A model generated the notes under the pieces. The model made no database searches and was not told the DNA's origin. It saw only the letters and a list, made by a program, of their open reading frames with translations. Shown in pieces: positions 5,521-37,936 of a stretch of 64,000 bases of DNA. This DNA comes from Aromatoleum toluvorans (GTDB taxonomy: Bacteria > Pseudomonadota > Gammaproteobacteria > Burkholderiales > Rhodocyclaceae). A program made the position numbers and the translations under genes. The stretch's first letter is position 1. Every line of letters starts with the position of its first letter. Location: NCBI RefSeq assembly GCF_012910905.1, contig NZ_WTVN01000029.1, positions 1 to 64,000 on the forward strand, read 5' to 3'.

Positions 5521-5883
5521 ATGTTACTGGACTATTTCCCTGTTTTTCTGATGGCCGGGGTGGTTACCCTGGTGGGGCTATTTATCCTGAAAATATCGTC
5601 GCTCCTTCGACCCGCCAACCCCTATCCTGCAAAAAGACAGCCCTATGAGTGTGGCGTCGATCCGGTTGGCGATGCCTCGGTGGGGCAAGTCAAGATCCAC
5701 TATTTTGTCATTGCCATTGTCTTTATTATTTTCGATGTCGAGACGCTGTACTTGTTTCCCTGGGCCGTGGTGCTGACGGATATCGGCCTGTTCGGTTATA
5801 TCGAAATGTTTGTCTTTATCTTTCTGCTTTTGGTTGGCTTTATCTATGCGTGGGCGACGGGGGCATTGGAATGGCAAATCTAG
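5521..5883 (+). CDS. nuoA: NADH-quinone oxidoreductase subunit A
   Basis: A 120-aa membrane subunit with three transmembrane helices at about residues 5-25, 62-84 and 90-112. The loop after helix 1 holds the family signature PYECGVDP; its conserved cysteine lies near the quinone chamber. The segment [19 protein letters not shown] is the classic NuoA helix 2 with the FDVE acidic pair. NuoA joins the peripheral arm to the membrane arm and sits beside NuoH and NuoJ. First gene of the operon; the next gene overlaps its end by 13 bases, indicating translational coupling. Confidence 0.96.
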
Positions 5884-6380
5884 AGAACCGTTTTTCCAAT
5901 AATGTCTTTTTCGGCTCCGTTGATTCCGTCATTAACTGGAGCCGTAGTTCGGCGCTGTGGCCCGAGACTTTCGGAATTGCCTGCTGCGCCATCGAGATGA
6001 TCTCGGCCGGCTGTGCACGTTATGACCTGGACCGCCTCGGCGTAGTGTTTCGTCCTTCGCCCCGGCAATCCGACCTGATGATCATCGCCGGCACCGTGAC
6101 CAAGAAATTCGCCCCGATCGTCCGCTTGCTCTATGACCAGATGACCGAACCCCGTTGGGTCATTGCCATGGGTACCTGTGCCATCTCGGGTGGTGTCTAT
6201 AACACCTATGCGGTGGTCCAGGGGTCAGAGCGCATCGTGCCGGTGGATGTCCACGTCCCGGGTTGCCCCCCCCGGCCGGATGCACTGATTCATGGCATCT
6301 TGATGCTGCAGGAGAAGATCAAGAAGCAACATGTACTACGCAGAAAAGACCCGCAAGAAACAGGGAAGGTATCGCCATGA
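5871..6380 (+). CDS. nuoB: NADH-quinone oxidoreductase subunit B
   Basis: A 169-aa peripheral-arm subunit that binds the terminal cluster N2. The four ligands are visible as the tandem Cys38-Cys39 (GIACCAIEM), Cys103 (MGTCAISGG) and Cys132 (VPGCPPRP). N2 passes electrons to quinone in the NuoB/NuoD cleft. The start at 5871 lies inside the end of nuoA and was chosen because conserved sequence begins there; a longer upstream frame has no similarity. The stop overlaps the nuoC start as ATGA. Confidence 0.97.
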
Positions 6381-6889
6381 GCAACCAGCCGCTGCTCGAA
6401 CTGCTTCAACGGGAGTCGATACAGCAGCGCTGCGAGTCGGTGTATGAAACCTTCGGGATGCTTACTTTGACGGTAAGCAAGGAGAACCTGCTGGCCCTCT
6501 GCCGCTTGCTGAAACACGATAGTGCCCTGCAGTTTAATTTCCTCTCCGATATCTGCGGCGTCGATCATTATCCCCAAACCCCGCGCTTCGAGACGGTCTA
6601 TCACCTCTATTCGATACCGTTCAAATACCGGTTGCGGATCAAATGCCGCCTTGAGCTGGATGAGTCGCCCCCGTCGGTGGTGCCGGTGTGGCAGACCGCC
6701 AACTGGCATGAGCGGGAAGCCTATGACATGTACGGGATTGTGTTTGTCGGGCACCCGGATCTACGACGTATTTATATGTGGGAAGGCTATGACGGATACC
6801 CGATGAGAAAGGACTATCCATTGCGTGGCTACGCTGACCACTACAACCCGTTTGGCGAGGCGCGTAGCCAAGGAGCAGAAGGGGCGTGA
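6377..6889 (+). CDS. nuoC: NADH-quinone oxidoreductase subunit C
   Basis: A 170-aa 30-kDa-type subunit, separate from NuoD (in E. coli the two are fused). It contains the conserved segment [20 protein letters not shown] followed by [20 protein letters not shown], the 30-kDa signature. It has no cofactor; it packs against NuoD and NuoB in the connecting module. ATGA overlap with nuoB. A ten-base gap separates it from the nuoD start. Confidence 0.95.
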
Positions 6890-6899
6890 CGGTGGCCTT

Positions 6900-8114
6900 A
6901 TGACCGACATCAATCTGTTAGGCACGAACGAAGCAGGTCAGAAACTGACCAAGGAGCTATTGCTCAACCTCGGGCCGCAACACCCGAGCACGCATGGCGT
7001 CCTGCGCGTCATGCTGGAGTTGGACGGGGAAGAGATTCGCGGGGTGGATACCGTCATCGGCTACCTGCATCGCGGCACTGAAAAGCTCGCCGAAAACTTT
7101 ACCTATACCCAGATCATTCCCCTGACCGACCGGCTGGACTATCTCTGTGCGCCCTCGAATAACCTGGCCTATGTATTGGCAGTGGAGCGCCTGCTGGAGA
7201 TCAAGGCCCCCGAGCGTGCCCAGTATATTCGCGTCATGATGGCCGAGATGGCCCGTATCTCCGGCCATCTGCTGATCAGCGGCGCGCTGCCGCTGGATCT
7301 GGGGGCCATGACCACCTTGCTCTATGTGATGCGCGAACGCGAGATGATCATGGATCTGATGGAGATGATCACCGGTGCGCGCATGCACACCTCATTCTGT
7401 CGGGTCGGCGGGGTGCGCGAGGATCTGCCTGATGGATTCGAGCCGCGTTGCCGCGAGTTCTGTCATGTGATGAAGCAGCGCGTTGACGATTACGAGCGCC
7501 TGATTACAGAAAATCGTATCTTCCTCAAACGCACCCGGGATATAGGCAAGATCAGTGGCGAACAAGCCATCGATTGGGGCTTGAGCGGGCCCTGCCTGCG
7601 TGCCTCGGGGGTTAGCTGGGATATGCGGCGCGATAACCCCTATGAGATCTATGACCGGCTCTCGTTCGAGGTGATCGTGCGTGAAAACGGTGACTGCTAC
7701 GACCGTTGGAAGTGCCGCATGGATGAGATGCGCGAGAGTGTAAAACTGATCGAGCAGTGCCTGGATCAGATGCCACAGGGGCCAGTGGCCGTGGCGATGC
7801 CCGATATTGCCTTTCCGCTCAACAAGATCACGGTGAAGTCGTCGATGGAAGCGATGATTCATCACTTCGAAGTCTCCGCCTATGGTTTCCCGGTGCCCAA
7901 GGGCGAGGCCTATGTCAGCATCGAAGCGCCGAAGGGAGAGTTGGGCTTTTACATCATCAGCGACGGTAGCCCCAAGCCTTTACGGATGAAGGTCAGAGCC
8001 CCTTCGTTCGTCAATCTGCAGGCGCTTGCCGTGCTGGCCAGGGGGTGTTACCTGGCCGACGTGATTGCCATTATCGGCAGCCTGGACCCGGTGATTGCCG
8101 AGGTCGACAAGTAA
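6900..8114 (+). CDS. nuoD: NADH-quinone oxidoreductase subunit D
   Basis: A 404-aa 49-kDa-type subunit that forms the quinone-reduction site with NuoB. GPQHPSTHGVLR (about residues 25-36) is the loop carrying the quinone-binding histidine, and LHRGTEKL (Arg58) is the conserved segment next to N2. The C-terminal LDPVIAEVDK is where NiFe hydrogenases carry DPCxxC, here without cysteines as expected. I believe the HRGTEK arginine corresponds to the residue dimethylated by NDUFAF7 in mitochondria; a MidA/NDUFAF7 homologue closes this locus. The start at 6900 was preferred to one at 6825 because similarity begins at about residue 15. Confidence 0.96.
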   Translation: MTDINLLGTNEAGQKLTKELLLNLGPQHPSTHGVLRVMLELDGEEIRGVDTVIGYLHRGTEKLAENFTYTQIIPLTDRLDYLCAPSNNLAYVLAVERLLEIKAPERAQYIRVMMAEMARISGHLLISGALPLDLGAMTTLLYVMREREMIMDLMEMITGARMHTSFCRVGGVREDLPDGFEPRCREFCHVMKQRVDDYERLITENRIFLKRTRDIGKISGEQAIDWGLSGPCLRASGVSWDMRRDNPYEIYDRLSFEVIVRENGDCYDRWKCRMDEMRESVKLIEQCLDQMPQGPVAVAMPDIAFPLNKITVKSSMEAMIHHFEVSAYGFPVPKGEAYVSIEAPKGELGFYIISDGSPKPLRMKVRAPSFVNLQALAVLARGCYLADVIAIIGSLDPVIAEVDK

Positions 8115-8157
8115 TTCCGACGAACCTGTGGGCTGCGCAATTCACGAGAAAAAAGTG

Positions 8158-8664
8158 ATGAAGGACCAGACCTTGAAGCAGCAGATCACCGAGATGGCCA
8201 CACGCTATCCGGCCAGCCGGTCAGCGGTGATGCCGGCCCTGCATCTGGCCCAGGCCCACTATGGTTATCTAACGCAGGATGCCATGGCCGAGGTGGCCGA
8301 GTATCTGCACCTGCCGCGGGTGACGGTGCTGGAAATCGCCACCTTTTACAGTCTGTTTCACACCCGGCGGGTGGGCAAATACCATCTGCAACTCTGTACC
8401 AATCTCAGCTGCATGTTGTTGGGCGCAGAGCGGCTGCAGCGGCAGCTGGAACAGCAGCTGGATATCCGTTGTGGCGAGACCACCGCCGACGGACGGTTTA
8501 CCCTGACCGCGGTGGAGTGCCTGGGGGCCTGTGAAATGGCGCCGGTAATGCAACTCAACGATGATTACTGCGGTCATCTGAATGAGCAGCGCCTGGCAGA
8601 GATGCTGCAAACACTACAAGAGGAACCAAACAGCAACCCGGAAAATGGACCACCGAGCAGTTGA
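8158..8664 (+). CDS. nuoE: NADH-quinone oxidoreductase subunit E
   Basis: A 168-aa 24-kDa-type subunit with a thioredoxin-like [2Fe-2S] domain. The ligands of N1a are Cys80 and Cys85 (LCTNLSC) and Cys121 and Cys125 (ECLGACEMAP). The N-terminal helical bundle (YPASRSAVMPALHLAQ) is typical. NuoE pairs with NuoF in the NADH-oxidising module. Its last bases overlap an upstream TTG that could start nuoF, but a better nuoF start follows. Confidence 0.96.
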   Translation: MKDQTLKQQITEMATRYPASRSAVMPALHLAQAHYGYLTQDAMAEVAEYLHLPRVTVLEIATFYSLFHTRRVGKYHLQLCTNLSCMLLGAERLQRQLEQQLDIRCGETTADGRFTLTAVECLGACEMAPVMQLNDDYCGHLNEQRLAEMLQTLQEEPNSNPENGPPSS

Positions 8665-8693
8665 TCAAACAGTCTGCCAATGGAGAGCCCGAG

Positions 8694-9956
8694 ATGTACG
8701 AGCAGGTACTCTTGCTGGAGAGGCGCGATTCTGAGTACCAGGATCTGGCAGGCTATCGTTTGGCGGGCGGTTATTCGGCATTGGGCAGCACCCTGCGTGA
8801 CTCCAGTCCTGAGCAGTTGATCGATCTGGTGAAGGAGGCCAAATTGCGTGGCCGGGGCGGGGCGGGTTTTCCCACCGGGTTGAAGTGGTCCTTTGTGCCG
8901 AAGGGTAACGCGTCTGCCAAATGGCTCCTGTGCAATGCCGATGAGGGGGAGCCGGGTACCTTCAAGGACCGGATCATCATGGAACAGACGCCCCATCTGT
9001 TGCTTGAAGGAATGACTCTGGCCGCCTATGCCATTGGCGCGGCAAAGGCCTATATCTACATCAGGGGAGAATACGTCACCGCCATCAGGCGCCTGGAGCG
9101 GGAGATTCAGGCCAGTCTGCAGGCGGGCCTGCTGGGCAAAAACATCCTCGGCTCCGGGTTTGATCTTGATATCTATGTGCACCGTGGTGCCGGTGCCTAC
9201 ATCTGTGGCGAGGAGACGGCGCTGATCGAGTCACTGGAGGGAAAACGCGGCCAACCCCGCTTCAAACCACCATTTCCTGCCGTCTCCGGCTTCTATAAGG
9301 GACCGACAGTGGTCAACAATGTCGAAACCCTGGCCTGTGTTCCGCCCATTGTGCAACGCGGTGCCGACTGGTTTCGCTCCATCGGTAGCGAGAAATGTCC
9401 CGGTCCCAAACTCTATTGCCTCAGTGGGCATGTAAGACGCCCCGGCCTGTATGAACTGCCCATGGGCATCTCGCTGCGGGAGCTGGTAGAGCAGCACGCC
9501 GGTGGCACGCACTCGGGGAAAAAGATCAAGGCAGTCATTCCGGGGGGGATCTCCGCCGCCCTGTTACCCGAACCGGCGCTGGACGTTGCCATGGACTTCG
9601 ATGCCTTGTCGGCCGCAGGCACCATGTTGGGCTCGGCGGGGGTGATCGTGATGGATGAGAGTACCTGCATGGTTCGGGTGGCGCACCGCATCATCGAGTT
9701 TTTCCATCATGAATCCTGTGGCAAGTGCACCCCCTGCCGGGAAGGATTGGCCTGGGTCGAGCAGATGCTTGGACGCATTGAGGCTGGCGAGGCAAAGTCG
9801 GGTGACCTGGAATCGATGGAACGGCTATATGGAAATATCGAGGGCAACACCTTCTGTCTACTGGGTGACGCGGCGGCGATGGCACTGCGTGGAGTGGTAA
9901 AAAATTTTCGCCACGAATTTATCGAACGAATACAGCAGGGTGGCCGGGCCGCATAG
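8694..9956 (+). CDS. nuoF: NADH-quinone oxidoreductase subunit F
   Basis: A 420-aa 51-kDa-type subunit that oxidises [14 protein letters not shown] (residues 53-62) is the NADH/FMN-binding glycine loop, [14 protein letters not shown] follows, and [19 protein letters not shown] is the FMN site. Cluster N3 ligands are Cys342, Cys345 and Cys348 ([11 protein letters not shown]) with Cys388 ([10 protein letters not shown]). The start at 8694 has GGAGAG upstream. A TTG at 8661 overlapping the nuoE stop is possible but adds an unconserved leader. Confidence 0.96.
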
Positions 9957-10012
9957 TGGCATGTACCCGATGCGGCGATTCGATGGGATATTCGGGATCG
10001 GACACGAGAGCG

Positions 10013-12568
10013 ATGGTCAAGATTTCTATCAACGGACAATCAGCCGAATTTGACGCCGGTACCACCATCCTGGATGCCGCCCGTCAAATGCAGATCGCCA
10101 TCCCGACCTTCTGTTATTACCCCGGGCTCAGCCCTTCTGGCTCTTGCCGCATGTGCCTGGTCGAGATTGCAGGACAGCGCCGCCTGCAACCGGCCTGTAT
10201 TACCGCCATTGCCGATGGCATGGTGGTACAGACGCAATCAAATGCGGCAAAGCGGGCACTGGAAGGCAACCTGGAATTCTTCCTCTCAAGCCATCCGCTG
10301 GATTGCCCGGTTTGTGATAAGGCGGGTGAATGCGAATTGCAGGATCAGGTGATGGAGCATGGCCCACGGATGGGGGTCTTCGTGGAGCAAAAGCGTATCT
10401 TCAATAACCGGGATATGCCGCTCAATGATGTGATCGTCTTCAATGCCAACCGTTGTATCCAGTGTGTGCGTTGTGTCCGCATGTGTGACGAGGTCGTCGG
10501 GGCCCATGTCCTGGGAGCGATCGAACGCGGCAACTACAGCCAGATCGCCGGCTTTGGCGATGATCTGAAAAACTGCGATCAGTGTGGTAACTGTATCGAG
10601 GTCTGCCCGGTGGGGGCCTTGATGAATCGTCCCTACCGTTACAAGGCCCGGCCTTGGGATCTGCAGCGGGTGGATAGCGTCTGCCCCTTCTGCGGCACCG
10701 GCTGCCAGTTCACGGTCGAGGTGCGGGATGGCGCGCTGGTGCGGGTCCGCTCGCAACAGGCGCTGGGACTGAACAATGAGACCCTCTGTTCCCGGGGTCG
10801 TTTCGGTATTGATTTTGTCAATCACCCGGACCGCATCAAGAGCCCGATGCTGCGACAGGGTGAAGCGTTGGTGGCGGTTTCCTGGGACGAGGCGGCGGAT
10901 TTTCTTAAACAGGCGTTTGTCGGAATGTTTGACCGGGGAAAGCGGGTCGGGGGCATGATCTCGCCACACTTGGGCAATGAGGCGCAGTTCCGCTTCCAGC
11001 AACTGATGCGCGGGGTCGTGCAGACCAACAATATCGATAGCTTCTGCCGTTGGTCCTATGCCGTGGACCGTGTCGACTCCCCGTATCCGGTTCTGCAGGA
11101 TCTGCTCCGCAATCACTATAGCCGTCAGCCGCTCGCCAGTCTGCTCAAAGGTGATCTGACCCTGCTCTACGGCTGCGATGTGGAAGATGAGAACCCGGTT
11201 TCCGATTATCTGATCCGCCGTAGCCTGACACGCACGGCAAACCGGCTCTATCTCATCTCACCCCGTCCGTTACGCCTGGAAGAGCATGCCGCCGCAGCAA
11301 TCAACAGCATTCCCGGGGATGAGGGCTTGCTGCTGGCCTGGACGCTGCACGGGATACAGGCGCAGAGTGGCGATCTCGCATTGGGTAAGGCCCTGCCCGA
11401 TGGCCCGCTTCCCGACTTGCCCACCGCGGCCTGTCGGCGGTTTGTCGATCGACTGACCACCGGGCTTTTGGCCGCTGATGAGATCACCTTGCTTACGGGT
11501 ACCGACCTGCTCAGAACGCCATCGGTGTTGTCGGGCCTGCAACTGCTGAACAACCTGATCCAGGTGCTCAAAAAACTCGGCAAACAAGTCCATCTGCAAT
11601 TTCTGCATGACCAGTGCAATCAGATGGGCAGTTGGGACTTGGGGGTTAGCCCGTATTGGTTACCTGGCGCAATCGCCCTGTCTGATGCGGCGGGAAGAGC
11701 TGCCTGTGAGCGGAATTGGCGTATGACGCTGCCAGCGATGCCGGGTATGGATTTTAACCAAATGCTCGATGGTTGCATCGATGGTCAAATGGACTGCCTC
11801 TATCTGGTGGCTGAGGATCCGCTGGTCAGCACGCCGGATACGGATCGCGTGGCAAACGCTTTGGATAAGGTGAACTTGCTGATTGTGCAAGATGCCTTCA
11901 TGACCGCCACGGCACAGCAAGCCGATCTGGTCTTGCCGGCCACCAGCTACGCCGAGATTGATGCCAGCTATACGAACAATGAGGGCCGACTGCAGCAGGT
12001 GCGGGGGTTTTACCCGCAGCCCGAAGGCATAAAATCCGATTGCGAGATCTTTTGCTGGATGGCCAGCAGCCTGGGGGCTGATCTGGGCTCAAGCCGTCCT
12101 GAAGCGATTCAGCAGGAGATCGAACAGCAGCTGCCAGCTTATCAGGGCTTGATCGAGGAAGCCGACGCCGGGGGGCGGTTTACCCGGGCCTTAACGACTG
12201 AACAAACCCCGGCGGTGCTGGTGCGTCCCGTGTTACCGCCGCGGATAAAACCGGCTGGCCTGCTGCTGATCACTGGCAACACCAAGAGTCATGCCGGTTA
12301 TTTGACCGAGCGATCCGCTACCTTGTGCCAAATATTGGCTGAACCCTATATCGAGCTCAATGCCGATCAGGCAGCAACTCTGGGTATCAGCGAGGGCCAA
12401 CGACTGGAGTTACAGGCAAACGGGTATGCGATAAATGCCAACGCCCGACTCAATCCCTCGCTGCAACCGGGTGTGGTCTTTGTACCTGGCCATTTCAGCA
12501 AGGCCAAGTTGAACCGTCTGTTCAAGGCTGGCGAGTACCCCTGTCCGGTCACGTTGAGGATTGCCTGA
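10013..12568 (+). CDS. nuoG: NADH-quinone oxidoreductase subunit G with extra Fe-S motif
   Basis: An 851-aa 75-kDa-type subunit. N1b: Cys34, 45, 48, 62. N5: His94, Cys98, 101, 107. Two complete ferredoxin-like motifs follow: Cys148-151-154-158 ([11 protein letters not shown]) and Cys188-191-194-198 ([11 protein letters not shown]). Ordinary NuoG has only three cysteines in the first and one in the second, giving N4 alone, so this protein appears to carry one more [4Fe-4S] cluster. N7 is also present (Cys224, 227, 231, 259). A molybdopterin-oxidoreductase-like region without a visible active-site Cys/Sec follows. The architecture recalls HydA and NAD-linked formate dehydrogenase. The start at 10013 has GAGAG upstream. 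Confidence 0.93.
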
Positions 12569-13554
12569 TGGAACTGATGACTGCCGTCGCAGTAATCATG
12601 GTGAAGGTGGTGTTGATCACCGTCATCCTGTTTATCGTGCCGGTGCCATTGACCTGGCTGGAGCGCAAGATAGCCGGACATATTCAACAGCGTATGGGGC
12701 CCATGCGGGTCGGCTGGCATGGCCTGTTGCAACCGCTGGCCGATGGTCTGAAATTGCTCACAAAAGAGGACAACATCCCGGATCAGTCCGACCGGGTGCT
12801 GTTCAAGATTGCTCCCTTTGTCGCCTTGGTACCGCCCTTTATGGTGTTTGTCGCCGTACCCTTTGGCGACAGCGTCAGTATTTTGGGCTATGAGACCAAG
12901 CCTTATCTGTCCGATATGAATGTCGGATTGCTCTATATTCTTGCTGTAGCTGGACTTGAGATCTACGGCGTCATCTTTGGTGGTTGGGCCTCCAACAGCA
13001 AATACGCCCTGTTGGGCAGCTTGCGCACCTGCGCACAGCTGATCAGTTATGAGGTGCCCATGGGGTTTGCGGTGATCGGCGTGATCATGCTGAGCCAGTC
13101 CATGAACCTTTCGGATATCGTCGACGCTCAGGAGCCCCTCTGGTTCATTGTCTATCAGCCCCTTGGTTTCTTTATCTTCTTTATCGCCGGCCTTGCCGAA
13201 GCACAACGGATTCCTTTTGACCTGGCCGAGGCCGAAGGCGATCTGGGGGCGGGCTACCATACCGAATACAGCGGTATGCGGTTCTCCTTTTTCATGATCA
13301 GCGAGTATCTGGTGATGCTGACCATCTCGGTGCTCTGTGTCTTGCTCTTTTTTGGGGGTTGGCATGGTGTGTTGATCCCATTGCCCGCACCCATTTGGTT
13401 TGCCCTGAAGGTTGGTTTCTTTATCTACCTCTTTATGTGGTTCCGCTTTACCTTTCCCCGCTATCGTTATGATCAACTGATGAGTATCGGCTGGAAGGTA
13501 CTGGTTCCGCTCTCAATTCTGAATATCCTGATTACCGGGATATTTGTCTATTGA
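12568..13554 (+). CDS. nuoH: NADH-quinone oxidoreductase subunit H
   Basis: A 328-aa eight-helix membrane subunit that forms much of the quinone tunnel. WLERKIAGHIQQRMGPMRVG near residue 30 is the ND1 signature, and EGDLGAGYHTEYSGMRF near residue 225 is the conserved acidic loop E/D cluster at the start of the proton path. Its ATG overlaps the nuoG stop (TGATG). Length matches the family. Confidence 0.96.
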   Translation: MELMTAVAVIMVKVVLITVILFIVPVPLTWLERKIAGHIQQRMGPMRVGWHGLLQPLADGLKLLTKEDNIPDQSDRVLFKIAPFVALVPPFMVFVAVPFGDSVSILGYETKPYLSDMNVGLLYILAVAGLEIYGVIFGGWASNSKYALLGSLRTCAQLISYEVPMGFAVIGVIMLSQSMNLSDIVDAQEPLWFIVYQPLGFFIFFIAGLAEAQRIPFDLAEAEGDLGAGYHTEYSGMRFSFFMISEYLVMLTISVLCVLLFFGGWHGVLIPLPAPIWFALKVGFFIYLFMWFRFTFPRYRYDQLMSIGWKVLVPLSILNILITGIFVY

Positions 13555-13563
13555 GGTCTGTCC

Positions 13564-14148
13564 ATGTACAACGAAAATGCGCTGAACAAGATCAGCCGAG
13601 ACCACCGATGGATCGGCGTGACTTTTTTTCTCGATTTGATCAATGGTCTCTCCCTGACCTTCAAGTACATGTTTTCAAGAAGTGTCACGATGCAGTATCC
13701 GGACAGGGAGAAATGGGTGCCGTATCCACGTCATCGTGGGCACCATGTGTTGCGTCGGGATGAGAATGGCGAGAACAAATGTGTCGCCTGTGAGCTTTGT
13801 GCAAAGATCTGTCCCTGTAACTGCATTACGGTGGTGCCCTACGAGGACGAGAATGGCAAACGGCGACCCTTGGTCTATGATGTCGATATGGCGCGTTGCC
13901 TCTACTGTGGCTTGTGTGAAGACTCCTGTCCGGAAGAGGCCATTGCCCTCGGGAGCGTATTCGAGTACTCCAGTTATACGTCGGAAGAACTGGTGGTAGG
14001 CCGCGATTCGTTGCTTGAGATGGATGGTAAAACCGAGCAGCCGGGAAGTGTCGTCAAGGCGCGGTACCTACCATCGGCGCAGTCTACGGTTGAAGCGCAG
14101 GAGTCTTCGGGGTATGACTGGTGGAGGTTTATCCATAGAAAGGATTGA
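13564..14148 (+). CDS. nuoI: NADH-quinone oxidoreductase subunit I
   Basis: A 194-aa 8Fe ferredoxin-like subunit. Cluster ligands for N6a and N6b are Cys73-76-79-83 (CVACELCAKIC) and Cys112-115-118-122 (CLYCGLCEDSC), with the fourth cysteine of each set swapping between clusters in the known fold. The N-terminal amphipathic segment (LINGLSLTFKYMF) lies on the membrane arm. The ~35-residue C-terminal tail after the conserved ELVVGRDSLL is variable. A 101-base gap follows, the longest inside the operon. Confidence 0.96.
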   Translation: MYNENALNKISRDHRWIGVTFFLDLINGLSLTFKYMFSRSVTMQYPDREKWVPYPRHRGHHVLRRDENGENKCVACELCAKICPCNCITVVPYEDENGKRRPLVYDVDMARCLYCGLCEDSCPEEAIALGSVFEYSSYTSEELVVGRDSLLEMDGKTEQPGSVVKARYLPSAQSTVEAQESSGYDWWRFIHRKD

Positions 14149-14249
14149 AGGTTATTGGGTCTGAACGCAACGGAATGCTTAATACGGGAGAGAAAGAAAA
14201 CAGAAATACCGCAGCGGCATTAATAATGACCAATAAAAAGGCTGGCTAA

Positions 14250-14753
14250 ATGGAACAGGCTTTTTTTCTCCTCTTTGCCTCGATCGCCGTGGCTTCGGCC
14301 TGTGGTGTGGTGCTGCTGAAAAATCCTGTTCATAGTGCGGTCGCCCTGATTGCCTGTTTCATCCAGATCGCCGCCCTCTATATCCTGCTCCATTCCCCCT
14401 TCCTCGCGGCGGTGCAACTGTTCGTCTATGTGGGCGCGATCATGGTGCTGTTCATATTCGTCATCATGATGCTGGAGATTCGCCAGGCGACCCTGGAACG
14501 GTTTCTGCCCGGAAGCAAGTATATTTCCCTGGCGTTTTCCGTGGTCCTGGGGAGTGCCATGTTGTGGCTGCTGTTCAGCAGCCCGCTGTTATCGCAGATT
14601 CCGCCACCCACGCCATCAGCGACCCAAGGCAGCGTCAGCGAACTGGGCCAGGCCCTGTTTACCCAATATCTGCTGCCCTTTGAGGTTGTATCGATCGTCC
14701 TGCTGGTGGCCCTGGTTGGGGCCATCTTTATGACGCATAAGGGGAATGGGTGA
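14250..14753 (+). CDS. nuoJ: NADH-quinone oxidoreductase subunit J
   Basis: A 167-aa five-helix subunit (ND6). Helix 3 ([19 protein letters not shown]) carries the conserved YVGAIMVLF segment where the pi-bulge that gates the E-channel forms. The last helix runs through [17 protein letters not shown], also typical. The start follows the 101-base gap after nuoI, in which I see no gene; a weak internal promoter is possible. The stop overlaps the nuoK start (TGATG). Confidence 0.95.
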
Positions 14754-15055
14754 TGGTGCCACTCTCCTGGTATATCGCACTCAGTGCCAGTCTATTTGTC
14801 ATTGGCCTCTACGGCGTGTTGAGCCGACGCAATGTCTTGATCGTCCTGATGTGCCTGGAGTTGATGCTCAGCGCCGTCAATATCAACCTGGTGGCCTTCT
14901 CGTTCTTTCTTTCGCATCTGGGTGGCCAGATCTTTGCGATCTTTGTCATCACGGTGACGGCCGCCGAGGTGGCGGTGGCCTTGGCGATTGTCATTGCCTA
15001 TGTGCGCCACAAGGGCAGCCTCAAGATCGACGAAATCAGCATCATGAAAGGGTGA
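14753..15055 (+). CDS. nuoK: NADH-quinone oxidoreductase subunit K
   Basis: A 100-aa three-helix subunit (ND4L). The two membrane-embedded glutamates of the proton path are visible in [16 protein letters not shown] (helix 2, near residue 36) and [15 protein letters not shown] (helix 3, near residue 72). NuoK links the E-channel to the first antiporter-like subunit. An in-frame GTG one codon upstream is possible, but the ATG gives a tight TGATG overlap with nuoJ. Confidence 0.96.
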
Positions 15056-15059
15056 TGCA

Positions 15060-16535
15060 ATGGCAGCCAGCGAATCCATCACCCCCGTGCTTGCGATCCT
15101 GGTCTCCTTTGGTGCCGCCTTGGTCATCCTGGCGCTGCATCAGCGCCCCAATCTGCGCGATGCGACTTCGGTCATCGCCGCGGTGATCAAGTTCATGCTG
15201 GTGATCTCCATGGCACCCATGGTGTTGCGGGGCGAGCTGATCGAATACAACTTGTTTACCGTCTTGCCCGGCATTGACTTTGCCTTCCGGGTCGACCCGC
15301 TCGGCATGGTTTTTGCGACCACCTCAAGTCTGTTATGGATCGTGGCGGCCCTCTATTCAATCGGTTATATGCGCAGCCTGAACGAGCATGCGCAGACGCG
15401 CTTTTATGCCTGTTTTGCGGTCAGCCTTTCAGCAGCCGTGGGCGGTTCCTTTGCCGCCAACCTCTTTACCTTGATCATCTTCTACGAGGTGTTAAGCCTG
15501 ATCACCTATCCCCTGGTCTATCACCACGAGGATGAGGCGGCCTGGGAGGGGAGCAAAAAATATATCGTCTATCTCATGGGGGCCTCCAAGACCTTCCTGC
15601 TTATTGCGGTGGCGTTGACCTATTTTCTTACCGGCAGCCTCGATTTTGCCCACGATGGTTTGCTCAAGGAGGTGTCAAGTTCACCCCTGATCCTGACGCT
15701 GCTCTATTTCTGCTACCTGTTTGGTTTTGCCAAAGCCGCCATCATGCCATTTCATGCCTGGCTGCCGGCGGCCATGGTGGCGCCAACGCCGGTCAGTGGC
15801 CTGCTGCATGCGGTGGCCGTGGTGAAAATGGGGGTGTTCTGTGTGTTGCGGGTCATCTTCCATGTCTTTGGTGTACAGCTTATGGGCGATCTGGGGCTGG
15901 GCATTGCCACCGCCTATCTGGTGTCTTTCACCATCATTACGGCCTCGCTCTATGCCCTGACCCGCGATGATCTAAAGGCCCGGCTGGCGTACTCGACGGT
16001 TAGTCAACTCTCCTACATCGTCCTCGGCGCGGCACTGCTTAGTCCCGGCGCGATGGTCGGTGGCATCATGCATATCGCCGGCCACGCCTTTTCCAAGATC
16101 ACCCTGTTCTTCTGCGCCGGTTCCATCTTCTGCGCCTGTCGGCGGCGAAAGATCAGCGAACTGGGCGGGATCGGGCACCGATTGCCGTGGACCATGACGG
16201 CATTCTTTATCGCCTCCTTGAGCATGATCGGCATTCCGCCGGTGGGAGGTTTTATCAGCAAGTGGTATCTGATCGTGGGCGCCATCGAGGCACAGCAGTT
16301 GGCATTTGTACTGGTGTTGCTGATCAGCTCACTGCTCAATGCGGCCTATTTTCTTCCCATTAGCTACACAGCCTTTTTTGATAAGGAGGCGCCCCCGAGT
16401 GGGGCCGCACCGACAGCACCGATCCGTGAGATTCCCCTGATGGCCGCCACCGTGATGACGACGGCCTTGTTGTCGCTGCTGTTGGGGCTTTATCCCGACT
16501 ATTTCCTGAGCTTGGCACAGGAGGTGATCAAATGA
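15060..16535 (+). CDS. MrpD-like antiporter subunit 1 of complex I
   Basis: A 491-aa polytopic protein of the proton-conducting transporter family (PF00361 type), in the position normally held by nuoL. It lacks the C-terminal lateral helix of NuoL and resembles MrpD/MnhD. Pumping residues are present: the helix-5 glutamate (FYEVLSLITYPL), the helix-7 lysine (FAKAAIMPFHAWLP), the helix-8 lysine (VAVVKMGVFCVLR) and the helix-12 lysine (VGGFISKWYLI). It starts 5 bases after nuoK and overlaps the next gene as ATGA. I infer that it is an integral fourth pump of this complex I, inserted next to one of NuoN/NuoM/NuoL. A separate Mrp-type antiporter role is less likely because no mrpA-C or E-G is present. 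Confidence 0.85.
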   Translation: MAASESITPVLAILVSFGAALVILALHQRPNLRDATSVIAAVIKFMLVISMAPMVLRGELIEYNLFTVLPGIDFAFRVDPLGMVFATTSSLLWIVAALYSIGYMRSLNEHAQTRFYACFAVSLSAAVGGSFAANLFTLIIFYEVLSLITYPLVYHHEDEAAWEGSKKYIVYLMGASKTFLLIAVALTYFLTGSLDFAHDGLLKEVSSSPLILTLLYFCYLFGFAKAAIMPFHAWLPAAMVAPTPVSGLLHAVAVVKMGVFCVLRVIFHVFGVQLMGDLGLGIATAYLVSFTIITASLYALTRDDLKARLAYSTVSQLSYIVLGAALLSPGAMVGGIMHIAGHAFSKITLFFCAGSIFCACRRRKISELGGIGHRLPWTMTAFFIASLSMIGIPPVGGFISKWYLIVGAIEAQQLAFVLVLLISSLLNAAYFLPISYTAFFDKEAPPSGAAPTAPIREIPLMAATVMTTALLSLLLGLYPDYFLSLAQEVIK

Positions 16536-16786
16536 TCGCTAAGCTGGTCAACTTCTTTGGCGATCCGCAATATCGTGCGCAGCGCTGGCGGCTATTCGTC
16601 ATTGTCATGGCGATTACCCTGATGGCCGATTTTCTGGTGAGGCGGGATCATGTCGAGGGCTTCTGGCAGGCGATACCCGGGTGGGGGGCTTTGTACGGGT
16701 TTATTGCCTGTTTCCTGATTATTTTTTTCTCAAAGTTCCTCGGCCATCAGGGCAAATTGATGCGTCGGGAGGACTACTATGATTGA
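16532..16786 (+). CDS. small two-helix membrane protein in nuo operon
   Basis: An 84-aa protein overlapping both neighbours (ATGA with the gene before, 8 bases with the gene after). Two hydrophobic helices are visible, at about residues 18-35 (RLFVIVMAITLMADFLV) and 49-69 (GWGALYGFIACFLIIFF), followed by a charged tail ending in REDYYD. I do not recognise a named family. Its tight coupling between the two MrpD-like subunits implies that it is a small accessory subunit or assembly factor of the membrane arm. Confidence 0.8.
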   Translation: MIAKLVNFFGDPQYRAQRWRLFVIVMAITLMADFLVRRDHVEGFWQAIPGWGALYGFIACFLIIFFSKFLGHQGKLMRREDYYD

Positions 16787-18527
16787 GTGGGGCCACCCGG
16801 GGCTGGTCTATATCTTTGGGGCGCTCTTGATTCCACTGTTCAAGGGACGCCTGCGCCAGGGCTATTTGCTGTTGGTCACGTTGCTGGCCTTGTCTGCCGT
16901 ATTCTCGCTGTCACCGGGGCAATACACCGTCTTCAGCTATACCGGCAAAGAGATCGTCCTGGGACAGGTGGACAAGCTCAGCATCCTCTTTGCCTGGGTC
17001 TTCAGTCTGATGGGCTTGATCGGCACGGTCTATGCACTGCAGGTGAGAGGCGCCGGTGAACATGTCGCCGCCTTTCTCTACGTGGGTAGCGCCCTGGGGG
17101 TGGTCTTTGCCGGGGACTTCCTCAGCCTGTTCCTGTTCTGGGAACTGATGGCCTTTGCCTCGGCCTATCTGGTGTTTGCCCAGGGGGGCAAGGCGGCCCT
17201 CGCGGCAGGTTTTCGCTATCTGCTGGTGCATATCGCCGGTGGACTCTGCCTACTGGGCGGGATTGTGTTGCACTATGCCGACACCGGGTCCATCCAGTTT
17301 GGCCCCCTGACCGAGGGTGGCGCCGCCTTCTATCTCATCCTGGCCGGTTTTATCCTCAATGCGGCGGTGCCGCCGCTTAATGCCTGGCTCACCGACGCCT
17401 ATCCCGAGGCCACCATTACCGGCGCCGTCTTCATGAGCGCCTTTACCACCAAGACCGCCGTCTATGTCCTGTTGCGTGGCTTCCCCGGGACCGAGGTGTT
17501 GATCTGGCTGGGCGCAGTCATGGCGATCTATGGGGTGATCTACGCGGTGCTGGAAAACGATGCCCGACGTTTGCTCGCCTACCATATCGTCAGCCAGGTG
17601 GGTTATATGGTGGCCGGTGTCGGGATCGGCACCGAGATGGCGGTCAACGGCGCCAGCGCCCACGCTTTTGCCCATATCCTCTACAAGGGGCTGTTGTTTA
17701 TGGGAGCCGGGGCGGTGATCCATGTCACCGGCCGTCGCAAGCTCACCGAACTGGGCGGCTTGTATAAACAGATGCCGGTGACGCTGTTTCTCTACATGAT
17801 TGGCGCTTTTTCGATCTCGGCCTTCCCGTTCTTTAGCGGTTTTGTCAGCAAGTCGATGGTGATCGCAGCCGCCGCGGGGGACGGTCACAGCCTGATTGCG
17901 TTGATGCTGATACTGGCCTCATCGGGTACTTTCCTGCATACCGGGCTCAAGTTGCCCTACTACATGTTCTTTGGCAAGGATTCCGGACTCAAGGCAAAGG
18001 AACCGCCAACCAACATGCTCATCGCCATGACCATGGCAGCCAGCCTCTGTCTGATGATCGGCATCTTCCCGGATCTGCTATACCGGCTTTTGCCCTATAG
18101 CGTCGACTTTCATCCCTATACCGGCGTGCACATCACGGAGACCATGGGCCTGCTGCTCTTCACCGCCCTGGGCTTCGCGCTGTTTCTCAAACACCTGGAC
18201 CCCGAGCGCACCATCAGCCTGGACACCGACTGGTTTTACCGCACCGGGGCAAGGTGGTTGATGTGGTTTGCCCGTCGTCCGCTGACGCGCTACGAAGAGG
18301 TGGTCAGCGATTTTTCCAACTCGCTGGTACTCAAACCCCATACCGCCATCGCAACACTTGGACTCTGGTTTGATCAGCATATTGTCGATGGGGTGGTCAA
18401 TGGCGTGGCGACCGGTCTGATCCGGTGCGCCACGCAGCTGCGCCAGCTGCAAAGCGGCATCCTGAGCCGGTATGCCCTAGGTATCGTGGCGGGGCTGGTG
18501 GCCTGTCTGTTGTATGTTTTTTTGTGA
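16779..18527 (+). CDS. MrpD/NuoL-like antiporter subunit 2 with lateral helix
   Basis: A 582-aa antiporter-like subunit. The helix-5 glutamate (FWELMAFASAYLVF), helix-8 lysine (FTTKTAVYVL) and helix-12 lysine (SGFVSKSMVIA) are kept, but the usual helix-7 lysine/histidine segment (KAAxxPxHxWLPDA) reads NAAVPPLNAWLTDA, so both Lys and His are Asn. Residues about 480-582 resemble the NuoL tail: a long amphipathic stretch (LWFDQHIVDGVVNGVA) and a final helix (YALGIVAGLVACLLYVFL). It is therefore probably the distal NuoL equivalent, carrying the lateral coupling helix. No canonical NuoL is encoded in this operon. Confidence 0.85.
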   Translation: MIEWGHPGLVYIFGALLIPLFKGRLRQGYLLLVTLLALSAVFSLSPGQYTVFSYTGKEIVLGQVDKLSILFAWVFSLMGLIGTVYALQVRGAGEHVAAFLYVGSALGVVFAGDFLSLFLFWELMAFASAYLVFAQGGKAALAAGFRYLLVHIAGGLCLLGGIVLHYADTGSIQFGPLTEGGAAFYLILAGFILNAAVPPLNAWLTDAYPEATITGAVFMSAFTTKTAVYVLLRGFPGTEVLIWLGAVMAIYGVIYAVLENDARRLLAYHIVSQVGYMVAGVGIGTEMAVNGASAHAFAHILYKGLLFMGAGAVIHVTGRRKLTELGGLYKQMPVTLFLYMIGAFSISAFPFFSGFVSKSMVIAAAAGDGHSLIALMLILASSGTFLHTGLKLPYYMFFGKDSGLKAKEPPTNMLIAMTMAASLCLMIGIFPDLLYRLLPYSVDFHPYTGVHITETMGLLLFTALGFALFLKHLDPERTISLDTDWFYRTGARWLMWFARRPLTRYEEVVSDFSNSLVLKPHTAIATLGLWFDQHIVDGVVNGVATGLIRCATQLRQLQSGILSRYALGIVAGLVACLLYVFL

Positions 18528-18569
18528 CTTGAATGTAACCGCGTGGCGTGTTGATCAAGGAGATTGCGG

Positions 18570-20075
18570 GTGGTGGATTCAGCCGTCAACACAATAGGTT
18601 TTCCCGTGCTGAGCCTGATCGTGCTGGTGCCGTTGGCTGGCGCGTTGCTGTTGCTCTGGCTCAAGGATGACCTTCAGATCAAGCGACTGGCCCTGCTGGT
18701 CACCACGCTTGATCTGGCGCTGACGCTGACGCTGCTGGCGCATTTCAATCCAGACACCCACCTGATGCAGTTTTCCGAAAAATATCAATGGATACCAGCC
18801 CTGGATATCCACTATGCGCTGGGGGTCGATGGCATCAGCGTACTGTTTGTCTTTCTCAGTGCGTTTCTGGGCTGGATCTGTGTGCTGGCTTCCTGGCGTG
18901 CCATTGAACAGCACGTGAAAGGTTTCATGTGCGCGCTGTTGGTGATGCAGGCCCTGATGTTAGGCGTCTTTTGTGCGATGGATCTGTTTCTCTTCTCCAT
19001 CTTCTGGGAGGCGATGCTGATACCGATGTATCTGATCATCGGTGTCTGGGGTGGGGACAACCGCATCTATGCCGCTTTCAAGTTCTTTCTCTACACATTG
19101 GCCGGCAGCGTACTCTTTCTGGTGGGCGTGATCGTGCTCTATTTTGAAGGCGGGCAGAGCTTTGATATTCAGATCCTGATGACGCAAAAGTATCCCTTTG
19201 CCGTCCAGTTCTGGGTCTTTATCGCCTTCTTTATCGCGTTTGCCATCAAAGTGCCGATGTTCCCGTTTCATACCTGGTTACCCGATGCCCACGTACAGGC
19301 CCCCACCGCTGGCAGCATCGTGTTGGCTGGCGTACTGCTGAAGATGGGAGCCTATGGCTTTTTGCGTTTTTCACTGCCGATGCTGCCCTTGGCGACCCAC
19401 TATTTTGCAACGCCGGTGGTGCTGGTCTCCCTGGTGGCCATCATCTACGGCGGCTATCTGGCACTGGCCCAGGATGACCTGAAAAAGCTGGTGGCCTATT
19501 CGAGTATCAGCCACATGGGCTTTGTCACCGTCGGCCTGTTTGCGCTCAATGTTGCCGGTCTGAAAGGCGGTATTTTACAGATGTTCAGCCACGGCATCAT
19601 CACCGGTGCGCTGTTCCTGCTGGTCGGGCTGGTCTATGAGCGTACCCATACCCGGCTGATCAGCGATTACGGCGGACTGATGAAGGTGATGCCGATCTAC
19701 ACCACCGGGCTGGCCTTTTTTACCCTGGCGGCGATGGCCTTGCCCGGCACCGGTGCGTTTATCGGTGAATTGCTGGTTTTGGTGGGGGTCTTTGGCTTTA
19801 GCAAGATCGTTGCAGCACTGGCAGTCATCGGTGCACTGCTCAGTGCCGGTTATCTTCTGAGCATGTTTAAACGGGTGGCCCTGGGCAAGGTGACCAACCA
19901 GGCGCTGACTAACAGTCGGGATCTGGATGCCAGGGAAGTGGTGACGCTATTGTCGCTGGCCCTGTTTGTTCTCTGGGTGGGCTTCTATCCCATGCCCTTC
20001 CTGAACATCATGCATGCATCCGTCGAGCACCTGCTGCAGCAGACGCAAGCGCAGGTCGTATTGATTAGCCGGTAA
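18570..20075 (+). CDS. nuoM: NADH-quinone oxidoreductase subunit M
   Basis: A 501-aa proton-pumping subunit. Standard residues are present: helix-5 glutamate (IFWEAMLIPMYLIIG), helix-7 lysine (AIKVPMFPFHTWLPDAHVQ), helix-8 lysine (GVLLKMGAYGFLRF) and the DDLKKLVAYSSISHMGF segment. The GTG start at 18570 lies 7 bases after AAGGAG; TTG at 18564 is too close to the ribosome site. Preceded by a 42-base gap. Confidence 0.94.
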   Translation: MVDSAVNTIGFPVLSLIVLVPLAGALLLLWLKDDLQIKRLALLVTTLDLALTLTLLAHFNPDTHLMQFSEKYQWIPALDIHYALGVDGISVLFVFLSAFLGWICVLASWRAIEQHVKGFMCALLVMQALMLGVFCAMDLFLFSIFWEAMLIPMYLIIGVWGGDNRIYAAFKFFLYTLAGSVLFLVGVIVLYFEGGQSFDIQILMTQKYPFAVQFWVFIAFFIAFAIKVPMFPFHTWLPDAHVQAPTAGSIVLAGVLLKMGAYGFLRFSLPMLPLATHYFATPVVLVSLVAIIYGGYLALAQDDLKKLVAYSSISHMGFVTVGLFALNVAGLKGGILQMFSHGIITGALFLLVGLVYERTHTRLISDYGGLMKVMPIYTTGLAFFTLAAMALPGTGAFIGELLVLVGVFGFSKIVAALAVIGALLSAGYLLSMFKRVALGKVTNQALTNSRDLDAREVVTLLSLALFVLWVGFYPMPFLNIMHASVEHLLQQTQAQVVLISR

Positions 20076-20088
20076 TCGGATAGGAACG

Positions 20089-21531
20089 ATGGATCAAGAT
20101 GCCATTATCCAGTCATTGATCACCAGTCTGCCGGAGATGACGGTGTTAGTTGCCGCTTGTCTGCTGTTGATGCTCGATCTCGTGTGGCGGCGTCAACGGG
20201 TGGCCGTGATTGGCTATCTGGCGATCGTCGTGATCGCCATTGCGGCATTGGAGACCCTGTTGATCGCCGGGCAAACCAAGCCCGTCTATAACGGCATGTT
20301 TGTGCTGGATGGCTTTGCCGTATTTTTCAAGCTGCTCTTCTGTCTGATCACGGCGCTGTGCATCCTCTTCTCCATCGGTTATCTGCAGCAGGAGCAGATC
20401 GAGCACAGCGAATACTACGTGCTGCTGCTGTTTGCCCTTTGCGGGCTGATGATTTTGGCCTCGGCGGTGGATCTGATCATCATCTATGTGGGGTTGGAGC
20501 TGATGGCCCTGTCGGTCTATCTGCTGACCGGATTCAAGCGCCAGAGCCCTTTATCCAATGAGGCGGCACTCAAGTATGTCATCCTGAGCGCCTTGTCCTC
20601 GAGTGTGCTGCTGTATGGTATGTCACTGCTCTATGGCTTGGCCGGGACGACCAATATAGCGGATATTGCCGCGGTGATCGGGCCGCAAGCGGCGATTGAT
20701 CCGCTGCTAATCTTCGCGATTGTGTTCTTGATAGGCGGATTATCGTTCAAGATCGCCGCTGTCCCGTTTCATATGTGGGTGCCCGATGTCTATCAGGGGG
20801 CACCGACCTCGATTACCGCCTTCATGTCGGTTGGACCCAAAGCGGTGGGATTTGCCGTGCTGTTACGGGTGTTTTTGCAAGGTTTGCTGCCCGTCTCGGA
20901 GATCTGGCTTGGGCTGTTTACGGTTATCGCGGTGGCGACCATGGCGGCTGGCAGCATCGCGGCATTGGTCCAGCACGATATCAAACGCATGCTGGCGTAT
21001 TCCAGTATCGCCCACGTCGGCTTTACCCTGTTGGGTGTGGTGGCTGGCGGGGAGGCGGGTATCGCCAGTGTGATGCTTTATCTGCTGATTTACAGCTTCA
21101 TGAACCTGGGCATCTTTGCCAGCATCATCGTGATATGCCTGGGGTCATTCGGCAGTGAACGAATCGAAGACTATACCGGTCTTTCCCGGTCACATCCGGT
21201 GTTGGCCATGCTGATGTTGATCTACCTCTTCTCACTGGCCGGCATTCCCCCGACGGCCGGCTTTTTTGCCAAGTTTTATATTTTTGTGGCGCTGATCGAA
21301 CAACAACATGTTGCCCTGGCGGTGATTGCGGTGATGTTCAGTGCCGTGGCTGCCTTCATTTATATCCGCATCGTGATGCTGATGTATATGCGTTCGCCCA
21401 CGGGTGAATTTGCCATACACCTTAAATTGCCGCCACAGCTGGCGTTAGGCATCACCAGCGTGGCGGTCATCGTGATTGGTCTGTTCCCCTCCTGGTTTCT
21501 CACCCTGGCTCAGATCGCGATACTTCGGTAG
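20089..21531 (+). CDS. nuoN: NADH-quinone oxidoreductase subunit N
   Basis: A 480-aa proton-pumping subunit, last of the nuo genes. Typical segments are VGLELMALSVYLLTGFKR (helix 5), LSFKIAAVPFHMWVPDVYQG (helix 7) and DIKRMLAYSSIAHVGF. The ND2-type subunit normally sits next to NuoK. It lies 13 bases after nuoM. The following 103 bases up to the CBS gene contain no clear terminator, so read-through is possible. Confidence 0.95.
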   Translation: MDQDAIIQSLITSLPEMTVLVAACLLLMLDLVWRRQRVAVIGYLAIVVIAIAALETLLIAGQTKPVYNGMFVLDGFAVFFKLLFCLITALCILFSIGYLQQEQIEHSEYYVLLLFALCGLMILASAVDLIIIYVGLELMALSVYLLTGFKRQSPLSNEAALKYVILSALSSSVLLYGMSLLYGLAGTTNIADIAAVIGPQAAIDPLLIFAIVFLIGGLSFKIAAVPFHMWVPDVYQGAPTSITAFMSVGPKAVGFAVLLRVFLQGLLPVSEIWLGLFTVIAVATMAAGSIAALVQHDIKRMLAYSSIAHVGFTLLGVVAGGEAGIASVMLYLLIYSFMNLGIFASIIVICLGSFGSERIEDYTGLSRSHPVLAMLMLIYLFSLAGIPPTAGFFAKFYIFVALIEQQHVALAVIAVMFSAVAAFIYIRIVMLMYMRSPTGEFAIHLKLPPQLALGITSVAVIVIGLFPSWFLTLAQIAILR

Positions 21532-21634
21532 CAAGGAGCTGTAGAGACGGCGTCGCGGGATTGTCTGGACACGTTGTGGGTCAGGACTACACTAAAGAGT
21601 GGGGTTCCTGCAAAGAGACGAAGGAGGTGCGCTC

Positions 21635-22096
21635 ATGCTCGTTGAATCCGTGCTGGCAAAGAAAGGTCATGATGTATTGACAATTTCACCGGATGCCACG
21701 GTCTATGAGGCCGTGGTTCTGATGGCTAAAAACAATGTAGGTTGTGTGCTTGTAATGTCCAAAGATCAAATTGCAGGCATCTTCACGGAAAGAGACTATG
21801 CTAGAAAGATAATCCTCAGGGGCAAGGGCTCGAAAGAAACCCTGGTGAGCGAGGTGATGACCACGCAGGTCTACGTCGTCGATAAAGGGAAGGCCCTCGA
21901 TGAGTGTATGGCTTTAATGACCGCCAACCGAGTACGCCATCTACCGGTAGTCGAAGGCAATAAGCTCGTTGGTATAATCAGTATTGGCGACACCGTAAAA
22001 AGCATTATCGATGAAAAGGAACGGGAAATCGAGCACATGATTGATTTCATACATGGCGGGGCAATCCACCCGGAAAATGATGGTCGTCAGAAGTAG
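21635..22096 (+). CDS. tandem CBS-domain protein
   Basis: A 153-aa protein consisting of two CBS motifs (about residues 8-65 and 72-130) and a short charged tail. GIFTERDYARKIILRGK and HLPVVEGNKLVGIISIGDTV are the diagnostic ends of each motif. Such small stand-alone CBS proteins bind adenine nucleotides (AMP, ATP, NAD or similar) and act as energy-state sensors. It has a near-perfect AAGGAGGTG ribosome site. Position directly after nuoN suggests a regulator of the complex responding to nucleotide state; the partner is not known. Slightly lower GC than the nuo genes. Confidence 0.85.
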   Translation: MLVESVLAKKGHDVLTISPDATVYEAVVLMAKNNVGCVLVMSKDQIAGIFTERDYARKIILRGKGSKETLVSEVMTTQVYVVDKGKALDECMALMTANRVRHLPVVEGNKLVGIISIGDTVKSIIDEKEREIEHMIDFIHGGAIHPENDGRQK

Positions 22097-32412: not shown

Positions 32413-32630
32413 TGAAGGCGGCATCGGTATTAATGTAGTGTGCAAAAAATGCAAACGCAATGGCGCACTCAGGGAGTCCGGCCGGTGGGCGAAAGGGAAG
32501 CGGTTCTCGGTTGCTGCATGACACCGTCCGAAGGTGCGCGGCCTCCCGCGGGCGCATGCTCCGTCGGACGGGCGCCCGGTTCGCCGCGCCGCTGTGGGCG
32601 GCCGTCGGCGCTGACATCGGGGGAGGGGGC

Positions 32631-35578: not shown

Positions 35579-35668
35579 GATGACAGCCCCCACGCTCGCG
35601 GCTATAGCCACTTCGCTGCCCCCCCGGGGGGCGAACGCCCTCCTAGGGGCGGCCCGTCGGAGGCGTTG
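35579..35668 (+). repeat. GC-rich intergenic repeat element, copy 1
   Basis: A spacer inside the operon that shares CCCCCACGCTC and, further on, a GGGGCGGCCCG block with the spacer at 37783-37936. Elements with this layout are common between genes in betaproteobacteria. Its right end supplies the hyfE ribosome site (CGGAGG). Confidence 0.6.
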
Positions 35669-37782: not shown

Positions 37783-37936
37783 AGTGCAACTACCCCCACG
37801 CTCACAGGTTTCGTGGAGGGCCGGCTGCGCACAGCCGGCCCGTTCGGCGGGCGCGAAGCCGTGCTTCGCGAATTCCCCTCCTCACCCCCCCGAGGAGGCG
37901 CAGGCCTCCCTTGGGGCGGCCCGGCGGGAGGCCTGA
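37783..37936 (+). repeat. GC-rich intergenic repeat element, copy 2
   Basis: This spacer between hyfF and hyfG repeats the CCCCCACGCTC start and the CTTGGGGCGGCCCGGCGGGAG end seen at 35579-35668, with an extra hairpin (GGCCGGCTGCGCACAGCCGGCC) in the middle. Its end supplies the hyfG ribosome site. Confidence 0.6.

Follow-up and report, generated by a model that had tools for sequence, protein, structure and literature searches.

The operon and its antiporter-like subunits

The DNA analyzed here is a stretch of 64,000 nucleotides from Aromatoleum toluvorans (contig NZ_WTVN01000029.1, hereafter the window), and it carries a complex I operon in which the antiporter-like subunit NuoL is replaced by a three-gene module. 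The operon runs nuoA-nuoK, a gene for an Mrp-type protein (MrpD1, 491 residues), a gene for an 84-residue membrane protein, a gene for a second Mrp-type protein (MrpD2, 582 residues), nuoM and nuoN, and it lacks NuoL. The open reading frames (ORFs) from nuoA to nuoK, the last of which ends at 15055, are separated by short gaps or overlap, and their translations contain no stops; mrpD1 overlaps the small gene by 4 bases, and the small gene overlaps mrpD2 by 8 bases. An initial annotation, made from the sequence and its ORFs, had given this gene order with lengths and coordinates that are exact on the ORF list. It also counted four antiporter-like subunits, including two of Mrp type, and the NCBIfam families above their cut-offs agree with this (Table 1). 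The families of MrpD1 and MrpD2 are both named antiporter subunit D, and the two proteins score 181 and 154.3 bits, respectively, against the NuoL subfamily, whose cut-off is 407.5. The best NCBIfam match of each of nuoA-J is a Nuo family, with those of NuoA, NuoG and NuoJ falling below the curated cut-offs, and nuoK is above the cut-off of its Pfam model. The true start of nuoM may be slightly downstream of the annotated TTG.

Table 1 Features of the operon, with positions in the window.
Feature	Position	Strand	Basis
nuoA-nuoK, eleven complex I genes (quinone, FeS, NADH-input and proximal membrane parts)	5521..15055	+	ORFs, families
mrpD1, antiporter-like subunit that keeps the full set of key Glu/Lys/His residues	15060..16535	+	NF006236, 779.5 bits (cut-off 663)
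84-residue membrane protein, conserved central member of the module	16532..16786	+	Profile, alignment, model; no family found
mrpD2, Mrp-type body with NuoL-type tail end, Asn194 at the helix-7 Lys site	16779..18527	+	NF009310, 769.8 bits (cut-off 564)
MrpD2 residues 477-524, first half of tail, like stand-alone Mrp D2 tails	18207..18350	+	Stand-alone D2-tail profile, independent E-value 1.9e-4
MrpD2 residues 531-580, lateral helix (second half) and final helix, like NuoL	18369..18518	+	NuoL-tail profile, independent E-value 5.1e-9
nuoM, ordinary	18564..20075	+	TIGR01972, 618 bits, above model cut-off; key residues kept
nuoN, ordinary	20089..21531	+	TIGR01770, 468.5 bits, above model cut-off; key residues kept

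The absence of a canonical NuoL, as claimed in the initial annotation, holds for the operon and not for the genome. A set of nuoL, nuoM and nuoN genes is found on another contig of the host genome (C95:102855-107445), where NuoL exceeds the TIGR01974 cut-off in an open frame of 677 residues and is adjoined by NuoM and NuoN.

Distribution of the module

Complex I loci were taken as the best 80 of 211 confirmed stretches from named records, leaving out one stretch (L089) that is the window itself. The order nuoK-mrpD1-small gene-mrpD2-nuoM recurs in records assigned by title or rank to Pseudomonadota, Desulfobacterota, Nitrospirota, Acidobacteria and Planctomycetota, and nuoA-nuoK-type genes flank the module in related loci too. 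MrpD1 is encoded directly upstream of MrpD2 in 76 of the 80 loci, and in the other four the mrpD2 frame starts less than 350 bases from a contig end. nuoM is present in 79 loci, the contig of the remaining one (L014) ending after mrpD2, and the small gene was found by profile in all loci except L030, whose stretch starts inside mrpD2. A strict script count gave all four neighbours in 63/80 loci, its misses being due to contig ends and to open frames that start far upstream. The closest named copy among these best 80 of 211 stretches is from Aromatoleum toluclasticum (MrpD2 97% identical). In 16 of the 80 loci (L019, L022, L028, L033 and 12 others), nuoD and nuoH were seen with neither nuoE nor nuoF within the locus; electron input there may be other than NADH, or the genes may lie outside the locus.

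The variant is present in 3 of 17 genomes of the genus, including that of the window. Among 150 genomes drawn from the order, eight contain the NF009310 family; seven of these have no nuoM adjoining mrpD2 and have short, antiporter-like tails, and the window genome is therefore the sole complex I case in this sample. The MrpD2 family occurs in 21 of 398 genomes of the phylum and is adjoined by nuoM in four, window included. The other 17 genomes gave 16 loci with mrpD1 and, by profile, the small protein, with no nuoM within 1.5 kb (G239 has the family and no locus, and L148 was left unannotated). Ten stand-alone stretches (L146, L147, L149, L150 and L168-L173) have the arrangement mrpE-F-G-B-C-D-D1-small-D2. 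No mrpA was seen in these ten stretches, the rest of those genomes not having been searched for it. The gene labels refer to L146, in which MNHE, MrpF, MnhG, MnhB with MbhD/MbhE, NuoK-like and three antiporter-like families exceed Pfam cut-offs; those of L147 were assigned by eye from the gene list, and the small gene of L169 comes from the profile only. MrpD1, the small protein and MrpD2 are one module, which occurs both in complex I and in mrp-type clusters. We also considered a link with nitrogen fixation, but nifH was above cut-off in 8/14 non-carriers as well as in 3/3 carriers (11/17 overall), and no conclusion was drawn.

The 84-residue protein, to which the initial annotation gave no such role, is a constant part of the module. 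Residues K68 and Y83 are present in all 62 aligned sequences, and the model contains a short N-terminal helix followed by two longer helices. The protein had no NCBIfam match at 0.01, its best Pfam match (0.035) was under the cut-off, and its best sequence and fold matches in the PDB had E-values of 2 and 1.6, respectively.

Descent of the two MrpD-like subunits

In a tree of 95 antiporter-like proteins built with a quick method, MrpD1 of complex I groups with stand-alone MrpD1 and MrpD2 with stand-alone MrpD2, each with a support of 100 in the Shimodaira-Hasegawa-like approximate likelihood ratio test. Despite its name, MrpD1 branches beside NuoL and MrpA and not beside MrpD (support 94 in this tree and 92 in the 37-row analysis below). 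Two sequences labeled MrpA (L092 and L095) are wrong-frame ORFs and were kept out of the trees. The initial annotation had named, as a finding that would refute it, a phylogeny in which one of the MrpD-like genes is an ordinary NuoL. Such a placement was rejected for both proteins by the approximately unbiased test, as grouping with NuoL gave p values of 1.24e-05 for MrpD2 and 2.21e-05 for MrpD1 (37 rows, simpler model). Canonical complex I has a NuoL by descent, and the window operon does not.

On a tree of MrpD2 (47 rows, helix-7 columns masked), the setting, complex I versus antiporter, needs two changes. Transfer of the module between the two enzymes has therefore happened at least two times, or a single time followed by a return. 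The antiporter MrpD2 of L164 is sister to the complex I MrpD2 of a Gallionella record (L067), with support 100/99. In the tree of 95 proteins, the NuoN of L067 clusters with the NuoN from the canonical set of the window's genome (support 100). The pattern of L067 and L164 shows signs of an exchange of module or backbone. Since this is a second complex I with a patchy presence in the genus, it was probably acquired, probably by transfer.

MrpD2 has a composite tail

The initial annotation described a NuoL-type tail on the 582-residue protein, and the end of the tail does match NuoL tails. The last 60 residues of MrpD2 match 12/13 NuoL sequences and 0/16 stand-alone MrpD2 (E<1e-3). At the same threshold, a profile of NuoL tails matches 81 of 86 complex I MrpD2 and none of 33 stand-alone ones (the 97 rows counted as green complex I include 11 MrpD1 rows, and 86 is the MrpD2 total). 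The match covers the second half of the tail, and the first half resembles stand-alone Mrp tails (Table 1). Judged by sequence, MrpD2 is an Mrp-type body joined to the far end of the NuoL lateral helix and its last transmembrane helix. In the structure model of MrpD2, residues 484-556 form a single helix of 73 residues, followed by a helix of residues 562-581. The long helix would measure ~110 Å, which we take to be the length of the lateral helix of NuoL.

The tail was measured from the motif DxDWxYR to the C-terminus. Its length is 79-83 residues in stand-alone MrpD2 (9/16 with the motif; a looser motif gives 79-89 residues in 16/17 more) and 100-111 residues in 83 complex I copies, with a median of 104 over all 86. 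The other three complex I copies have tails of 128 (L056), 129 (L046) and 131 (L045) residues. The tail of the window MrpD2 is 101 residues and, by alignment, contains no 26-residue insert. L045 and L046, the only two of the 80 loci with two nuoM genes, both have lengthened MrpD2 tails. With two nuoM, MrpD1 and MrpD2, they have five antiporter-like subunits, and they are metagenome-assembled genomes (MAGs) titled Deltaproteobacteria. Steps of about 23-26 residues in tail length apparently correspond to one more subunit crossed per step. By this measure, the lateral helix seems to have the length to cross NuoM and NuoN alone, and it is not expected to extend over both MrpD-like subunits. MrpD1 is not counted by this ruler and is therefore predicted to lie beyond MrpD2, at the distal tip of the membrane arm.

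MrpD2 lacks the helix-7 lysine

Helix names were assigned after what we understand to be the usage of published complex I structures, and we take K223 of MrpA and K219 of MrpD to be the helix-7 lysine. In the MrpD2 of the window, N194 and N201 occupy the helix-7 lysine and histidine sites, just as the initial annotation had read them. The lysine site is Asn in all 86 complex I MrpD2 copies (83/83 at first, and then three more rows), and the histidine site is Asn in 34, His in 26, Gly in 19 and Ser in 7 of them. Lysine is paired with Asn194 in four of the five best PDB matches, and there is a gap at this position in 7d3u_A. As a control, the 95 rows of the antiporter-like tree have Lys in 83, with Asn in 11 complex I MrpD2 and one stand-alone MrpD2. 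The key residues, including the helix-7 lysine, are kept in 79/79 complex I MrpD1 copies, in 81/81 NuoM (including the helix-12 glutamate, Glu402 in the window) and in 64/64 NuoN, and the helix-7 lysine is found in 13/13 NuoL. Passages of a review describe K223 of MrpA and K219 of MrpD as extremely important for antiport (PMC5703873). The initial annotation proposed one more ion-pumping unit in this enzyme, a claim that these counts do not bear out. As MrpD2 lacks the lysine and MrpD1, NuoM and NuoN have it, three subunits carry the full residue set, as in ordinary complex I, and an extra pump appears doubtful.

Among 33 stand-alone MrpD2, the helix-7 site is Lys in 23 and Asn in 10. We rejected the idea that the lysine was lost on entry into complex I, which the first 16 stand-alone sequences (15 Lys, 1 Asn) would have allowed and the wider sample does not. 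Because stand-alone proteins also have it, the asparagine marks the lineage and was not brought about by entry into complex I. On the MrpD2 tree, the change between Lys and Asn is needed only once, and the asparagine therefore likely predates the complex I form.

Comparison with known systems

The window enzyme is an NADH:quinone oxidoreductase of the green complex I type, a known but little-studied form whose arrangement has already been published. Green complex I, as cited in passages of PMC9040806, has two MrpD-like subunits in place of NuoL. According to parts of another paper, ~70 Alphaproteobacteria contain both operons, and expression is raised in symbiosis in rhizobia (PMC7415380). The window shares with these descriptions the two MrpD-like subunits, the absence of a lateral-helix insert and a second, standard complex I operon in the host genome (passages of PMC9040806 and PMC7415380). 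The same module occurs in Sinorhizobium glycinis (L015), whose MrpD2 is 69% identical to that of the window, and the copies of Mycoplana (L013) and Sinorhizobium are among the rows nearest to the window's, in keeping with kinship to the rhizobial form. The host of that form is a rhizobium, whereas the window host is near Aromatoleum/Azoarcus. The gene order also differs: in L013 and L015, J-K-D1-small-D2-M-N comes before A-G, while the window has A-K, D1, small, D2, M, N and thus lacks the rhizobial rearrangement. As gene order varies among the 80 loci, we treat it as a trait of subtypes and not as a defining one for green complex I.

The 2M complex I of Nitrospira, said to have been described by Chadwick et al. 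in 2018, reportedly gained a NuoM as its extra subunit and kept NuoL. It likewise has four antiporter-like subunits, but in the window NuoL is replaced, and the operon has neither the two NuoM nor the lengthened NuoL lateral helix of that form. A form with five antiporter-like subunits, Complex_I_3 of Candidatus Manganitrophaceae, is described in passages of PMC9040806. Its two MrpD-like subunits are close to the rhizobial ones. It differs from the window in the number of NuoM (two, against one) and in an MrpD2 insert of 26 residues that the window lacks. The five-subunit sets of L045 and L046 fall outside the family for which uniqueness was claimed in passages of that paper.

The mrp-type clusters in which no mrpA was seen share the D1-small-D2 trio with the window, and the two are joined in the tree; however, these clusters have no redox subunits, and their MrpD2 tail is shorter and not NuoL-like. 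The mrp cluster of Nitrospira alkalitolerans may be of this kind, judging from passages of its description (PMC7784846). Among PDB sequences, MrpD2 is matched best by chain X of the MBS complex of Pyrococcus (6u8y; 1.3e-38), which has a lysine aligned with Asn194. MBS works with a redox partner different from that of the window enzyme. In the open-access literature, outside which the main papers on green complex I lie, we found nothing relevant on clusters lacking mrpA or on Aromatoleum, and the word asparagine is absent from one further paper that came up. The novelty of the asparagine, the small protein and the antiporter link is not established.

Interpretation

On sequence evidence, NuoL is replaced by a three-gene module whose relatives end mrp-type clusters without a visible mrpA. 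With fair confidence, we read the operon as a green complex I in which this module forms the distal part in place of NuoL and MrpD2 is not a standard pump. MrpD2 would dock beside NuoM where NuoL otherwise lies, its lateral helix passing over NuoM and NuoN. MrpD1 would occupy the distal tip beyond MrpD2, and the small protein would help to hold it there. Proton transfer in MrpD1, NuoM and NuoN may follow the usual Glu/Lys mechanism, and MrpD2, with its helix-7 asparagine, may be a coupling link or an altered channel. At the end of the chain, MrpD1, and not MrpD2, would then do the work of NuoL. If MrpD2 is not a standard pump, the net yield would therefore more likely be near 4 H+/2e- than 5. 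A wider proposal, to which we give somewhat less than an even chance, is that the module is an exchangeable distal cartridge at the place of MrpA and NuoL in two enzymes, crossed between them more than once and fused to a NuoL tail through MrpD2 on entering complex I. MrpD2 would act as a relay lacking the lysine, with MrpD1 as the working tip, giving four antiporter-like subunits without a fifth proton.

Several observations weigh against this interpretation. Outside helix 7, the key residues of MrpD2 vary little or not at all (His299, for example, is found in 85/86), which argues that MrpD2 still handles ions. The helix-7 histidine is retained in 26/86 complex I MrpD2. The stand-alone antiporters with the helix-7 asparagine (10/33) presumably work. 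As for the tail, those of five loci titled Acidobacteria (L061, L070, L073, L074 and L075) resemble NuoL weakly, the lateral helix of the MrpD2 model has low confidence (predicted local distance difference test, 39-62 by block), and L056 has a long tail with one nuoM in its locus, which goes against a strict length ruler. L056 is possibly a relic or an intermediate.

The main alternative is that each of MrpD1, MrpD2, NuoM and NuoN is a working pump, for a yield of 5 H+ (or Na+)/2e- that would serve energy saving or reverse electron flow. This is the reading given for such enzymes in passages of PMC9040806, and it draws on the presence of four antiporter-like genes in a single operon and on the Glu122, Lys225, His295, Lys303 and Lys358 that the window MrpD2 keeps, the helix-5 Glu, helix-8 Lys and helix-12 Lys being invariant among complex I copies. 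We consider it unlikely, because every one of the 86 complex I MrpD2 lacks the lysine reported, in passages of PMC5703873, as extremely important in MrpA and MrpD. In a sodium version, which we regard as improbable, the Mrp-derived tip would move Na+ and NADH oxidation would be coupled to a mixed proton and sodium gradient. The closest relatives of the module in mrp-type clusters and the altered helix 7 of MrpD2 point in this direction, but no Na+ site was identified, and several carriers are, by title, groundwater MAGs, in which the use of sodium is not obvious. It is very improbable that the module is a separate Mrp-like antiporter lodged in the nuo operon of an enzyme without NuoL, as the trio's presence in mrp clusters might suggest, since no mrpE, mrpF, mrpG or mrpB was seen in the operon, where nuo genes stand in their place, the trio lies between nuoK and nuoM across several phyla, the NuoL-type tail separates complex I MrpD2 (81/86) from stand-alone MrpD2 (0/33), and MrpD2 tails are longer in the two loci with a second nuoM.

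Other features of the window and host genome

Directly after nuoN is a gene that looks CBS-domain-like by eye (21599-22096), and its BLAST relatives lie close to the module in several further loci. Another large antiporter-like cluster, hydrogenase-4-like in appearance, is located at 32460-40035, with two antiporter-like proteins and NuoH-, NuoD- and NuoB-like genes; by eye, the NiFe cysteines appear to be missing from its large subunit. Two more antiporter-like genes, on contig C73 of the host genome, resemble a separate mrp cluster, one labeled MrpA by eye.

Implications

Extra antiporter-like subunits in complex I are usually taken as extra protons pumped. The loss of the lysine in every complex I MrpD2 examined offers a natural test of whether each subunit pumps alone or relays a signal. 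The link with antiporter clusters also hints that the outer pump can be exchanged and that tail length is a sequence clue to the number of subunits beneath.

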